The notes under the pieces: model-generated | Seen by the model: only the letters and a program-made list of their open reading frames with translations | Database searches by the model: none | Told to the model about the DNA's origin: nothing | Program-made: the position numbers and the translations under genes | Shown here: positions 28 through 34,582 of the stretch, piece by piece | Position numbering within the stretch: the stretch's first letter is position 1 | Layout: each line of letters starts with the position of its first letter | Origin: Pontibacter sp. G13 | GTDB taxonomy: Bacteria; Bacteroidota; Bacteroidia; J057 | Length of the DNA: 64,000 bases | Direction of reading: 5' to 3' | NCBI RefSeq assembly: GCF_031851795.1 | Contig: NZ_CP134696.1 | Span: forward strand, 2,341,001 to 2,405,000

Positions 28-1176
28 ACCCACGGGCCAGTGCACTTGCCGAAATCCGCCTCAGGATTTCCGGGCAATGAATTGCCCGGTTGTGGGATGT
101 CGCGCCTACAGTGCTTGCATGGATGCCAAGCGCTAAAATATTGCCTCATCCCGCAAAATTCCGACGCGGTGGCGCCTGTGGGTGGGGGAATTTATGCGGG
201 ATCTCACGCCTCGTGCATGCTGGGGCTCGTCTTTTATCGGGAGAGGAATGAGGGCCATATTACTCCCTTGGCATCCGTCCTGCCCTGTGGGCGCCCTACC
301 GCGGAATTGAGCAGGAGGCGGATTACCCACGGGCCAGTGCACTTGCCGAAATCCGCCTCAGCAGAGTTTGTTTGGGCCGATGCACTTGCCGAAATCCGCC
401 TCAGGATTTCCGGGCAATGAATTGCCCGGTTGTGGGATGTCGCGCCTACAGCGCTTGCATGGATGATGATGAGGCCAGAACGTCTCCGATGCCCAAGCCT
501 CGCACGTCATCTTCGACGGCAATGGGCCCTGGCTTGTGTGTAGGCGCCGATCGGGGATCTCCTGAGCGCGAGCAGGAATGCCAAGCCTACTCCACATGCC
601 CCCGCGGCGATCTCCTTGGATGCCATGCAAGCTCAGGGAGATTCCGGATAGGGCTCCAGCGCGAGGGCCGTGGCAGATGCCCTTCCGGAATGACGTGATG
701 GGGGGATTCTGAGCAGGAGGCGGATTACCCACGGGCCAGTACACTTGCCGAAATCCGCCTCAGGATTTCCGGGCAATGAATTGCCCGGTTGTGGGATGTC
801 GCGCCTACAGCGCTTGGATGGATGCCAAGCGAAAAAATATTGCCTCATCCCGCAAAATTCCGACGCGGTGGCGCCTGTGGGTGGGGGAATTTATGCGGGA
901 TCTCACGCTTTGTGCATGCTAGGGCTTGTCTTTTTTCAGGAGCGGAATGAGGGCCATGTTTCTCCCTTGGCATCCATCCTGCCCTGCGGGCGCCCAATCC
1001 TTAGCAGGAGCCGGATTACCCACGGGCCAGTGCACTTGTCGAAATCCGCCTCAGCAGAGTTTGTTTGGGCCGATGCACTTGCCGAAATCCGCCTCAGATT
1101 TCCGGGCAATGAATTGCCCGGTTGTGGAATGTCGCGCCTACAGCGCTTGGATGTTTGAAAGCGCTGTAGGCGCGAC
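28..1176. repeat. Tandemly duplicated hairpin-rich non-coding module
   Basis: A first unit (from about 28, beginning ACCCACGGGCCAGTGCACTT) recurs at about 726, and a second unit (from about 325, carrying GCAGAGTTTGTTTGGGCCG) recurs at about 1018. A block of roughly 0.7 kb is therefore present twice. Each unit carries GAAATCC/GGATTTC, then the perfect stem CCGGGCAA/TTGCCCGG with loop TGAA, then TGTCGCGCCTACAGCGCTTG or a close variant. Open frames here run across the repeats and have no recognisable domain, so I read the block as non-coding. The function is unknown. It may be a decayed repeat array or the edge of an accessory insertion. Confidence 0.75.
1131..1176. repeat. 18-bp perfect inverted repeat ending the module
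   Basis: The arms 1131-1148 (GTCGCGCCTACAGCGCTT) and 1159-1176 are exact reverse complements around a 10-base spacer. The left arm is the conserved tail of the repeat module. Only this last copy has gained a full complementary arm, so this is the probable right boundary of the array. Confidence 0.8.
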
Positions 1177-27367: not shown

Positions 27368-27492
27368 ATGAAGCCTCTCTCGGGTCTTGCGAATCATCAT
27401 GCCTTTTGGGCTTTCACTCTCGACACTTTTCATCGCATTATATGCCAGATTTCTTTTCACGATTCTATGGAAAACCAGGCCCATTTTTCTGG

Positions 27493-29916
27493 ATGAAGCT
27501 ACGCATTGCTTGGGTAACGATTTTGTGGGTATCCATCGGTCCTGCTTGGGGCCAATCATGGATTTCCAATCCTGATTTTGAGACTTACACGACACTTCCA
27601 ACAGGACTTTCTCAACTGACCAATGCCACGGGGTGGTTTTCCCCCATCGGAACTTCTCCTGATTATTTCCATACTTTATCTACCAATCCACTCACCGGAA
27701 TGTCCAACAGTTTCGCCAATTTGGCCCCACAATCGGGGCAAGGAATTGCGGGATTCATTTCCTTCATGTATCACAATGAATATCGAGAATTCATTACGAC
27801 GATCTTTACCAATCCTCTGACGACCGGAGATAAATACGAGCTCTCCTTCTGGATGACCAACGGCAATCCTACGCATGGAGCAAGCTGTAGTATTGATGGA
27901 GTTGGAGCCCTGCTATCGGTCGGGCATCCTCCCGGCAATATGACCCCAATGGTCGGCACGGTACCCATGCCCACCAGCAAGCTCGTCTCCCTTCCCAATC
28001 AGTTTTACAATCCCCAGTGGGAGCAAATCAAGTTGAGATTTCGGGCTGATCAACCCTATACGCATTTGACGGTAGGGAGCTTTTACGGACATGCACTCAT
28101 TGATACTGCTTCTGTCAATCCCGGCATTTGCATCACGACCTACCTATTTGTCGACAATTTCAACTTGGATGTCATTCCCCCGATTACAGGAACCTCCCCA
28201 ATTTGTCCAGAGCAATTGGACACCCTCGTAGCACTCAATTGGTCCGGAAACCTTCGCTGGAGTCTTGACGATTCCTTTCAGACAATCCTATCACAAGACG
28301 ACACCTTGATCGTGGCCCCTTCTCAAACGACTACCTATTGGGTGGCAGATGGTCCAGACACCAATAGTTTTACCGTCGTGGTAGATTCTATTTCGGTAGA
28401 TCTAGGCCCTGATATCCTGTTGTGTCCCAATACCACGGTGGATCTTGCGGTTACCTCAGCTTACTCCTCACTCGTATGGGATGATCAATCTGTTTTACCG
28501 ATCCGGTCCGTGGGCACCCCAGGAGTTTATTGGGTGGATGTCGCGAGCCCGATGTGCACGGCGAGGGACTCCATCGAAGTTTGGACTCCTCCCTTCCCCA
28601 CTGTGGAGTTAGGGCCCGATTCGACGATATGCCCCGGAGATTCGGGCATTTTGATTCCTCTTGCCACCTCAGGCCATCTGTTATGGCAGGATCAATCCAC
28701 CGACTCCCAGTTTTCATTCACAGGAGTTGGGCACTATTGGGTCACCTTGACGGATACTTGTGGAAATCAAGCTTCAGATTCGCTCCTATTTTCCGAAATC
28801 CCTCCCCTAGCCCTAGACCTTGGAGGCGATACCTTGATTTGTCCCGGAACCTCTTGGTTCATTTCTGCCGCTTCTCAGGCCATCGACTATCTTTGGCAAG
28901 ATGGATCTGATGACCAAACCTATCTCATTGATACAGGGGGCCAATATTGGGTCACCCAGTCCGACCAATGCGGGCGAAATATCACCGACTCGATTTGGGT
29001 AGCGGAAGTCGCCATCCCCGACCTGGATTTGGGGCCGGACACTGTGTGGTGCTCAGGGGATACCTTTAGGATTCAGTTTCCGCAAGACTTTCTATCTATC
29101 CGCTGGGAAGATGGCTCCGACGCATTCGACCGGCAACTCACTAAACCGGGTTTATACAGCTTCGAGGCCCAGCATATTTGCCGGGCATTTTCGGATACCT
29201 TGCAGCTTTCCCCGTCTCCTTGGGATGAACCTTGGGTCTCAGTCGATTCAATTTTATGTCCAGAAACACCGTGGACCGTTGACTTGGCGGAGCCTTATTC
29301 AACCTATCTATGGCAGGATGGAACTTCCGATGCAACCTATCAAATCGCCAGAGCCGGAACCTACCTAGTGGAAATCAGCCATCCTTGTGGCAATGCCATC
29401 CATGAATTCCACATGGATATCGACTCCCCTCCAATAGCCGATTTGGGCGATGACCTAGAGATCTGCCCGGGTGATACCCTCTGGCTTTCCAGTCCTCATC
29501 CTGGTGCCACCTACCTGTGGCAAGATGGGGCTACCCATGATCGAATCCCTGTTGTCGAGGCGGGAAGTTATTCATTGCTGGTACAAGATGCCTGCGAAAG
29601 CTCCCTAGATGCTATCGAAGTTTGGGAAGGTGCTTGCGAATGCAATCTGTACATCCCCTCTGCATTTTCGCCCAATTCCGATGCAGTCAACCAGACCTTC
29701 TCCACAAAATCCCAATGCCCGTTTCTATCCTTCCGATTGAACATTTTCAACGCTTGGGGTGGGGTAATTTTTGAGAGCACAGATCCAGACCAATCATGGG
29801 ATGGGGCCTTCCAAGGCATCCCCGTCCCCGAGGGCGTCTATATCTATCGGATCTCCTATCAATTTGAGGACCAACCCAAACACATGCGTTCAGGAAGCAT
29901 TACACTCATTCGGTAG
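27493..29916 (+). CDS. T9SS-secreted Ig-repeat protein with type B sorting domain (paralogue 2)
   Basis: About 807 residues from ATG 27493 (MKLRIAWVTILWVSIGPAWGQS, a good signal peptide); earlier in-frame Met codons at 27406 and 27442 are less likely. It shares the design of paralogue 1: an N-terminal jelly-roll-like domain with NPDFETYTTLPTG, about six LGxDxxxCxG/WQDGS repeats, and a type B C-terminal sorting domain ending KHMRSGSITLIR. The direct arrangement and shared 3' flank show tandem duplication. Same inferred role at the cell surface. Confidence 0.88.
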   Translation: MKLRIAWVTILWVSIGPAWGQSWISNPDFETYTTLPTGLSQLTNATGWFSPIGTSPDYFHTLSTNPLTGMSNSFANLAPQSGQGIAGFISFMYHNEYREFITTIFTNPLTTGDKYELSFWMTNGNPTHGASCSIDGVGALLSVGHPPGNMTPMVGTVPMPTSKLVSLPNQFYNPQWEQIKLRFRADQPYTHLTVGSFYGHALIDTASVNPGICITTYLFVDNFNLDVIPPITGTSPICPEQLDTLVALNWSGNLRWSLDDSFQTILSQDDTLIVAPSQTTTYWVADGPDTNSFTVVVDSISVDLGPDILLCPNTTVDLAVTSAYSSLVWDDQSVLPIRSVGTPGVYWVDVASPMCTARDSIEVWTPPFPTVELGPDSTICPGDSGILIPLATSGHLLWQDQSTDSQFSFTGVGHYWVTLTDTCGNQASDSLLFSEIPPLALDLGGDTLICPGTSWFISAASQAIDYLWQDGSDDQTYLIDTGGQYWVTQSDQCGRNITDSIWVAEVAIPDLDLGPDTVWCSGDTFRIQFPQDFLSIRWEDGSDAFDRQLTKPGLYSFEAQHICRAFSDTLQLSPSPWDEPWVSVDSILCPETPWTVDLAEPYSTYLWQDGTSDATYQIARAGTYLVEISHPCGNAIHEFHMDIDSPPIADLGDDLEICPGDTLWLSSPHPGATYLWQDGATHDRIPVVEAGSYSLLVQDACESSLDAIEVWEGACECNLYIPSAFSPNSDAVNQTFSTKSQCPFLSFRLNIFNAWGGVIFESTDPDQSWDGAFQGIPVPEGVYIYRISYQFEDQPKHMRSGSITLIR

Positions 29917-32474: not shown

Positions 32475-32618
32475 GAGAAATGCTGATTGATTTCGATTCG
32501 AGTATAGTGAAATTTTTGAATACCCAAAACGCTTGTACACAATTTCCGGAATTTCAAATCGCTGAAATCCTTGGGGAACCAGATTGCAAAACTCATTTCG
32601 ACCACCGTAATTTGCAGC

Positions 32619-32960
32619 ATGTCAAACATAGGAAAATCTATAGGCGGATTGGCAGCAGGCGCCCTGATTTTGGTGCGCGTCCTTGCTACAGACGGCTGTT
32701 CGATCGCGATGAAAGGCTTAGGTCGCTTTGGGGATGAAGCGATAGATGCTACCCGATATCTGGATGATGTATCCCTGCTAGACGATGCTGCACGACTAGG
32801 GGATGCGGTGGATGCCGGCGAACTCCTCTACGAAGTGTATGATGAAGTTGGGGAAGATGAAGAATTGGACTTCGATGGCGAGGAATTGATAGGGATTGAG
32901 GCTGAACTGGAAATGGCCGAGCCCGAGATGGAAGAGGATTCCATGGAAACCCATCAGTAA
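32619..32960 (+). CDS. Small acidic hypothetical protein
   Basis: 113 residues from ATG 32619. A hydrophobic N-terminus (SIGGLAAGALILVRVLA) is followed by an extremely acidic tail with runs such as DEVGEDEELDFDGEEL. A good terminator follows the stop, which supports it as a real gene. An earlier Met (32571) is possible. It is divergent from the YARHG lipoprotein gene, with starts 145 bp apart. No family recognised. It could be membrane-tethered with a calcium- or cation-binding tail. Confidence 0.6.
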   Translation: MSNIGKSIGGLAAGALILVRVLATDGCSIAMKGLGRFGDEAIDATRYLDDVSLLDDAARLGDAVDAGELLYEVYDEVGEDEELDFDGEELIGIEAELEMAEPEMEEDSMETHQ

Positions 32961-32970
32961 AGATTGCCTC

Positions 32971-33001
32971 AGGAAGCCACAACGCGTGAGCTTCCTTTTT
33001 T
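32971..33001 (+). terminator. Intrinsic terminator
   Basis: AGGAAGC (32971-32977) pairs with GCTTCCT (32990-32996), followed by a run of T. It begins 10 bp past the stop of the acidic protein gene. Confidence 0.75.
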
Positions 33002-33045
33002 TGAATAGCTGTTTCATGATTGGGTCCTGGCACAGATGATCTATT

Positions 33046-33418
33046 CTTATTTAAGTTTTCCGCCATTTTCTTAAATAAGACCATTCCTTATTTAAACCCG
33101 TGAAACTTAGCCAATCCCTTATTTAAAAATTTGACCATTTCCTTAAATAAGACCATTCCTTATTTAACCCCTTGAAACTTAGCCAATCCCTTATTTAAAA
33201 ATTTGACCATTTCCTTAAATAAGAATTCCGCTTATTTAAATTTTTTACCATTTCCTTAAATAAGACCATTCCTTATTTAACCCCATGAAACTTAGCCAAT
33301 CCCTTATTTAAAAATTTGTCCATTCCCTTAAATAAGAATCCCGCTTATTTAAACTTATTGCCATTTTCTTAAATAGCACTTCTCTTTAATTACATTATTC
33401 CCGTATTTATTAAATAAG
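33046..33418. repeat. Phased array of 16 CTTATTTAA/TTAAATAAG sites upstream of fic
   Basis: Nine forward sites start at 33046, 33087, 33118, 33159, 33190, 33231, 33272, 33303 and 33344. Seven reverse sites start at 33070, 33142, 33214, 33255, 33327, 33368 (truncated) and 33410. Forward spacings are 41 or 31 bp, and reverse spacings are 72, 41 or 42 bp. A reverse site is always followed by a forward site 17 bp later. Between sites the text is also repeated (TGAAACTTAGCCAATCC three times). It ends 27 bp before the fic start codon. Confidence 0.9.
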
Positions 33419-33445
33419 ATTTCTATATCTCTCATCTTCAAAATC

Positions 33446-34582
33446 ATGGACCAATTCATCTCCGGGCAACAAATTCATCAAGGGTATTATCAGAGTTTTC
33501 AACCCTGTATGATTCACCGAAAATGGAACATCACGGACATGGAGCTTTTGAGCTTGCTGGGGAAAGCAGATCGACAATTAGGAAAGCTGGATATGTTCTC
33601 CTCCTTTGTTCCCAACATCGAGTTATTTATCAGTATGCACGTCCTGAAGGAAGCCACTCAATCCAGTAAAATCGAGGGGACCAAAACCAATATCGAGGAT
33701 TTGCTGATGGATCAACCGGATGTTGACGTTGAAAAAAGGGATGACTGGGAAGAAGTTCAAAACTACATCAAAGCCCTTCATCATGGATTAAATCGACTGT
33801 CTGATCTTCCACTGTCAGCACGATTGATGCGTGAAACCCATCAGATCCTTCTACAAGGAGTGAGAGGCACGAATAAACTACCAGGAGAGTTTCGCAATAG
33901 CCAGAATTGGATTGGTGGTGCCTCCATCAATGATGCGACCTTTGTTCCCCCTCATCACTCGACCATTGGGGATTACATGAGCGACCTTGAACGATTCATT
34001 CACGATGAGCAGAACTTCTTTCCTGAATTGCTCAAGATTGCGCTGATCCACTATCAATTCGAAACCATCCACCCTTTCCTTGACGGAAATGGGAGGCTCG
34101 GCCGCTTGTTCATCGTCATGTATCTTGTGGACAAAGGCCTTTTACAGAGACCGATTCTCTATTTGTCTGATTTTTTCGAGCGCAATAAGGGATTGTACTA
34201 TGACAATTTGATGAGAGTCCGAACGCATAGCGATATCAGGCAATGGTTCAAATTCTTTCTGGTGGGGGTTATCGAAACGGCCAGTTTTGCCAGTCAGACC
34301 TTTGAGGAAATTTTGCAACTCAAGCAACAGAGCGAAAAGGACATTCAAGTCTTAGGAAATCGTATTCCAAGCGCTTTGAAAGTCTTGGAACATCTATTCA
34401 AGCGACCCTTGGTCAATGCCTCCATGGTTCAGTCCATCACAGGACTCTCTTCGCCTTCAGCCTACCGGCTGCTCAATGATCTGGAAAAGCTGGGAATTCT
34501 GGAAGAAGTAAGCGGGCGAAAACGGAAACGCGTCTACATTTTCAGGTCCTATCTGTCGCTTTTCGAATCGCCTCAACCTTAG
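33446..34582 (+). CDS. Fic-domain AMPylase-like protein with winged helix
   Basis: 378 residues. The N-terminal Fic_N helix carries the auto-inhibitory motif SSKIEG (73-78, form S-x-x-x-E-G), which blocks the active site in class II Fic proteins. The catalytic loop HPFLDGNGRLGR (209-220) is complete, so transfer of AMP or another NMP to a Ser/Thr/Tyr target is expected. A C-terminal winged helix-turn-helix (about 325-370, VQSITGLSSPSAYRLLNDLEKLGILEEV) should bind DNA. The architecture matches SO4266-like Fic proteins. The site array directly upstream suggests that it regulates its own promoter. No antitoxin gene is adjacent. Confidence 0.93.
   Translation: MDQFISGQQIHQGYYQSFQPCMIHRKWNITDMELLSLLGKADRQLGKLDMFSSFVPNIELFISMHVLKEATQSSKIEGTKTNIEDLLMDQPDVDVEKRDDWEEVQNYIKALHHGLNRLSDLPLSARLMRETHQILLQGVRGTNKLPGEFRNSQNWIGGASINDATFVPPHHSTIGDYMSDLERFIHDEQNFFPELLKIALIHYQFETIHPFLDGNGRLGRLFIVMYLVDKGLLQRPILYLSDFFERNKGLYYDNLMRVRTHSDIRQWFKFFLVGVIETASFASQTFEEILQLKQQSEKDIQVLGNRIPSALKVLEHLFKRPLVNASMVQSITGLSSPSAYRLLNDLEKLGILEEVSGRKRKRVYIFRSYLSLFESPQP

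Follow-up and report, generated by a model that had tools for sequence, protein, structure and literature searches.

A helically phased half-site array before a Fic gene of Pontibacter sp. G13, a probable autoregulatory operator

Although many Fic enzymes carry a winged helix, a specific DNA target has been published for almost none of these domains. A related form of control is found in toxin-antitoxin operators such as phd-doc, where a toxin-like gene is autorepressed by cooperative, adjacent binding on repeated palindromes; unlike that system, the Fic enzyme described here carries its own DNA-binding domain, and a separate antitoxin gene was not seen. CccR, a Fic-HTH protein of Yersinia pseudotuberculosis, represses its own gene from an inverted repeat near -35/-10, which it contacts with its HTH, as demonstrated by reporter assay, EMSA and footprinting, and requires dimerisation to do so (PMC9755527). 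For two further Fic proteins with a winged helix the role of DNA is less defined: DNA binding by SoFic from Shewanella oneidensis was described as undemonstrated as of 2023, and DNA binding by CbFic2 from Coxiella burnetii (PDB 8CIL) alters both dimerisation or oligomeric state and enzyme activity (PMC10628234).

We analysed a window of Pontibacter sp. G13 DNA, by which we mean the whole stretch of 64,000 nucleotides (contig NZ_CP134696.1, positions 2,341,001 to 2,405,000), which contains the sole Fic_N gene of this genome (fic; Table 1). Judged from its sequence, the product is a class II predicted AMP-transferase of the SoFic type with a C-terminal winged helix: the domain order is Fic_N, Fic, HTH, the fold matches SoFic, and both SoFic-type motifs are present, the catalytic HPFx(D/E)GNGRxxR (HPFLDGNGRLGR at 209) and the N-terminal inhibitory (S/T)xxxE(G/N) (SSKIEG at 73). 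Residues H209, N215, R217, S73, E77 and G78 are invariant in all 86 family members. The AlphaFold2 model has a mean pLDDT of 84 and places residues 336-337 in the first turn of the recognition helix (336-348). A preliminary description of the locus had recognised the gene as coding for a Fic protein with a winged helix, in agreement with these domain matches.

SoFic (PDB 3EQX, 3ZCN), which shares the Fic_N, Fic and winged helix domains, is the nearest solved relative (E 9e-38; Foldseek rank 1-5, TM 0.72-0.76) but, unlike the Pontibacter protein, has no known operator. CccR (PDB 7XUX) is homologous as well (E 5e-16, also by fold) and likewise joins a Fic domain to a C-terminal HTH. It differs in being a secreted T6SS effector and in its operator, a single inverted repeat with 10-bp half-sites and a 26-bp spacer for which no array has been reported. 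No single inverted repeat with a 26-bp spacer was found at Pontibacter fic, which is instead preceded by a lattice of 41-bp period, with spacers of 16 and 7 bp and at least 15 half-sites. By analogy, the Pontibacter Fic may work like CccR but on a different type of operator. (PDB 7CB8 was rejected as a CccR structure; it is a Mycobacterium marinum Fic.) CbFic2 is also a class II Fic with a C-terminal winged helix, but it was studied with random DNA only, without a specific operator, and a host-histone target has been proposed for it (PMC10628234).

The array before fic is built from CTTATTTAA, which occurs in 15 exact copies counting both strands. All of them fall within 33046-33418; the rest of the 64-kb window has none. 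In the window as a whole 0.23 copies are expected, and at most 2 were seen in 100 shuffles. The sites follow an F-25-R-16-F arrangement with a 41-bp period, some links being 31 bp: along the array, the forward sites are spaced by 41, 31, 41, 31, 41, 41, 31 and 41 bp and the reverse sites by 72, 72, 41, 72, 41 and 41 bp. Two mismatched units (33344-33377, 2 mismatches; 33385-33418, 3 mismatches) carry the lattice on. The decayed reverse site within the 31-bp link keeps the proper 16 bp to the following forward site, and the link therefore looks like a unit minus 10 bp, or one helix turn. The array has a GC content of 28%, against 50.5% for the window.

Table 1 Features of the fic locus, in window coordinates.
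Feature	Position	Strand	Description
Upstream ORF	32571..32960	+	129 aa, no Pfam match; outside the fic/array system
Terminator-like hairpin of upstream ORF	32969..33003	+	Stem AGGAAGC/GCTTCCT then T7; -13.9 kcal/mol, z -2.2
Array	33046..33418	.	Exact half-sites CTTATTTAA/TTAAATAAG: 9 forward, 6 reverse; plus degenerate sites
Forward exact half-sites	33046, 33087, 33118, 33159, 33190, 33231, 33272, 33303, 33344		
Reverse exact half-sites	33071, 33143, 33215, 33256, 33328, 33410		
Degenerate array sites	33369; 33385		33369, 2 mismatches (16th site); 33385, 3 mismatches for the pair
Representative 41-bp repeat unit	33118..33158	+	F-N16-R-N7
31-bp link	33087..33117, also 33159-33189, 33272-33302	+	Decayed reverse site GAAACTTAG at F+15
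Promoter-proximal unit	33344..33393	+	By-eye alignment to ortholog operator-promoter (CTTAAATAAG..TATCTTTG..)
Last half-site	33410..33418	-	3' of inferred -7 element, ~28 bp ahead of start codon
fic	33446..34582	+	Fic_N (36-115), Fic (122-227), C-terminal IclR-like winged helix (310-354)

The preliminary description had counted 16 sites, of which 15 are exact and the sixteenth carries two mismatches; its forward spacings of 41 or 31 bp and reverse spacings of 72 or 41 bp hold, while a further reverse spacing of 42 bp should read 41. It had also noted that the spacings are close to multiples of 10.3 bp, and we find that the forward sites and the reverse sites are each in phase if one helical turn takes 10.25-10.3 bp (resultant 0.98-0.99). 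With a repeat of 10.5 bp the array is out of phase (resultants 0.39 and 0.20), so that phasing of the whole array requires 10.3 bp and the claim assumes a DNA repeat near 10.25 bp; adjacent sites are almost in phase whichever of 10.3 and 10.5 bp is used. The spacers are copied nearly unchanged from unit to unit (122-nt copies are 88% identical), and since they were duplicated along with the sites, the array probably grew by tandem duplications of 72 and 113 bp.

On one side the array is flanked by the fic start codon, and on the other by the hairpin that follows the upstream ORF and divides the array from transcription upstream. This hairpin was missed by a terminator consensus scan, whose loop limit was 8. 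Paired sites are essentially limited to the fic locus in this genome: with up to 3 mismatches allowed, three other places had paired sites, about as many as in the reversed control. Recurrence of the array genome-wide and away from fic, which the preliminary description held would count against a role in fic control, was thus not found.

Upstream regions were read for 80 orthologs of 51-65% identity and for further relatives. An exact 41-bp direct-repeat lag is present in 53 of 87 ortholog promoters, compared with 2.3 after shuffling and 1.6 among AT-matched windows taken from these loci, and an 82-bp lag in 25/87 ortholog upstream regions. Registers from a rigid 41-bp fit were poor, and that fit was dropped. 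The lattice fit, which like the half-site extraction was blind to protein sequence, reached at least 6.5 in 79 of 86 promoters, the Pontibacter one included, and in none of 80 AT-matched control windows; AT-rich half-sites are common, so registers may be misassigned at weak loci. Among the more distant held-out promoters, 23 of 37 reached a fit of 6.5. A search of other genomes for the array next to fic had been suggested as a check; arrays of this kind are widespread, and the set extends beyond Bacteroidota, partly through metagenome bins, to Thiobacillus, Gallionellales, Nitrotoga, Desulfuromonadales, Delongbacteria and Ignavibacteria. Most orthologs have 2-5 sites, and several lineages besides Pontibacter have 7-9; by near-exact half-site count the Pontibacter array is the largest, with 15 (next 9, median 3-4).

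Distant Fic paralogs (about 30-37% identity) have unrelated half-sites but the same spacings of 30/31, 40/41, 70/72 and 82 bp, which are approximately integral turns of ~10.2 bp. This recurrence, like the array itself, supports helical phasing of the sites. Five paralogs (L017, L021, L018, L019 and L025) have phased repeats of the half-sites CTTTACATG, CCTCTAAT and ACATGTTCA, with spacings of 41/72/82 or 70 bp. A subfamily with the helix TTKPAN or TSKPAN (L101, L105, L111, L134 and L135) has a 40-bp period and another half-site, such as TATAATGGAG; the choice between 40 and 41 bp seems to be clade-dependent. In four genomes of Desulfuromonadales or Gallionella type (L049, L058, L059 and L063), fic comes after what looks like the end of hsdS, and in two of them (L049 and L058) it also precedes an apparent hsdR, these genes being recognised by eye. 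In those two, fic would lie inside a type I restriction-modification operon and retain its own lattice operator.

The spelling of the half-site varies by gene (TTATTTAAG, TTATTTTAG, TTAGTTAAG, TTATTGCAA and others). Covariation of spelling with the protein was tested twice: first by comparing entire upstream regions through their 6-mer spectra, which showed no significant association with the winged helix, and then by explicit half-site extraction, with held-out promoters as an independent check. With extracted half-sites, operator similarity correlates with similarity of the 8-residue recognition helix (partial r 0.344, P 0.0005, with Fic-core similarity and that of the remaining winged helix controlled for), in partial Mantel tests that do not fully remove shared ancestry. 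The remaining winged helix contributes nothing beyond the recognition helix.

The strongest coupling among all pairs of operator position and protein residue is that of position 8 with residue 337: Pro goes with TA in 30 of 34 cases, Val with TA in 14/15, Ala with TT in 12/13 and Arg with GC or GT in 4/5, the Arg rule having very few independent origins. Lys336 goes with G at operator position 5 in 5/7. On the Fic-core tree, the Ala337/TT rule has five supported independent pairs, on average 4.6 concordant and 0.0 opposite (sign test P 0.06, from these 5 contrasts only). In the held-out promoters the residue-337 rule was correct in 8 of 10 cases; TA was found with Pro or Val337 in 7/9 and otherwise in 0/14 (P 1.5e-4), and the Lys336-G association held in 3/4 against 2/19. 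Conservation of the array before orthologs, its covariation with the recognition helix and its absence elsewhere in the genome together indicate that each Fic very probably uses its winged helix to read the array that precedes its gene, and they agree with the earlier proposal that the array serves fic and is bound by its product.

The -7 element of Bacteroidota promoters has the consensus TANNTTTG. Of 85 ortholog promoters, 46 contain it, against 9.7 after shuffling, and it starts mostly at one lattice phase, right after a reverse half-site and into the next forward site; in 11 promoters TTTG lies 19-21 bp 5' of it. The final unit overlaps the -33/-7 promoter in most Bacteroidota orthologs. 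In Pontibacter the -7-like element (about 33381-33388, TCTCTTTA) is degenerate, and the transcription start was therefore placed by alignment; a promoter consensus scan, which used a sigma-70 model unsuited to Bacteroidota, found nothing. Two features of CccR-type autoregulation thus have counterparts here: inverted repeats overlap the gene's own promoter, as seen in the orthologs and aligned onto Pontibacter, and they appear to be read by the protein's own HTH, as indicated indirectly by covariation.

We propose, with a probability of roughly 0.8, that the array serves fic as its autoregulatory operator and that Fic dimers sitting side by side on it repress their own gene. Array, lattice, gene linkage, recognition-helix covariation and promoter overlap in the orthologs all emerge from comparison of genomes; we infer that the outcome is repression rather than activation and that binding is dimeric and cooperative. 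Dimers would bind the half-sites via the C-terminal winged helix, with residues 336-337 reading operator positions 5 and 8, and the half-site repeat of 41 bp (or 31, one turn less) would place them on one helix face with neighbours able to bind. The promoter-proximal unit would cover -33/-7, so that its occupancy would stop transcription and keep down the amount of an AMP-transferase that could be toxic. With the promoter covered by a bound dimer, repression would be the probable result. The extra upstream units of Pontibacter, which would stem from recent 72/113-bp tandem duplications, may raise the local Fic concentration and make repression sharper or stronger.

It is possible, though on balance doubtful, that only about three promoter-proximal half-sites count and that the rest arose neutrally by tandem duplication. 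The near-unchanged spacers are as recent duplication predicts, the Pontibacter array is an outlier in its number of sites, and part of the expansion could be neutral, because spacers duplicate together with sites. On the other hand, nine forward and six reverse sites are letter-perfect despite spacer variation, the phase is held over every link, and long arrays are found in several other lineages too; perfect sites and long arrays elsewhere are not decisive against neutral expansion, however, because the duplications may be young. We consider it improbable that Fic activates its own promoter from the array: the bulk of the array does lie upstream of the inferred promoter, like activator sites, but the last units cover -33 and -7 in orthologs, repression by CccR acts from the equivalent position (PMC9755527), and placing an AMP-transferase under constitutive positive feedback would be costly.

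The array by itself names no reader, and a regulator other than Fic could bind it. This is very unlikely, since the spelling follows Fic residues 336-337 better than it follows the Fic core or the remaining winged helix, and the lattice stays with fic across changing neighbourhoods and phyla. Even less plausible is an element that works as RNA, through leader hairpins or processing sites, or as a mobile or REP-like repeat. The inverted repeats do form modest predicted stems, but at z -2.0 to -2.8 these are weak, and RNA structure was rejected as the function; an Rfam scan of the array returned no family, the inferred start lies downstream of most of the array, and half-site changes track the DNA-binding helix. 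The array locus is unique in the genome, and a mobile or genome-wide repeat was rejected on this ground. Returning to autorepression by Fic, a speculative and rather unlikely elaboration would be that the array acts as a DNA 'antitoxin', a phased scaffold holding Fic as a cooperative oligomer in a state that is dimeric, inhibited or deAMPylating. Expression and enzyme activity would then both depend on array length, and leaving the DNA or auto-AMPylation would free active enzyme. The preliminary description had similarly supposed that Fic could oligomerise on the array, with its auto-AMPylation state as a possible switch. Such a link between array and enzyme state would have its one basis in analogy to a distant relative, CbFic2.

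We found no report of an operator array, lattice or recognition code for Fic-HTH proteins in the open-access literature (subscription papers were outside the search). While the principle of autoregulation is already known, the family-wide lattice, the recognition code and the 15-site expansion appear to be new. The array had initially been called new as such; its exceptional length relative to the family median is, but arrays are the norm in this family and autoregulation by CccR is published. Lattice and two-residue code together would make the binding site predictable from sequence for many Fic winged-helix proteins. They would also open to direct test the role of the winged helix, the geometry of dimers on DNA (alternation of 25 and 16 bp, phasing of about 10.25 bp) and any coupling of DNA binding with AMPylation. 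For work on cooperative autoregulation, the 15-site array offers a naturally occurring extreme case.

Elsewhere in the window, a large surface-type protein is encoded at 27406-29916 (+), a neighbour only, whose C-terminus (SAFSPNSDAVNQTF...) resembles the type B sorting domain of gliding Bacteroidota. Three matches to the Acido-Lenti-1 RNA (Rfam RF01687) lie at 410-455, 769-814 and 1102-1147 (+), ~350 bp apart; they exceed the gathering score, in a genome that looks like that of a member of the Bacteroidota.
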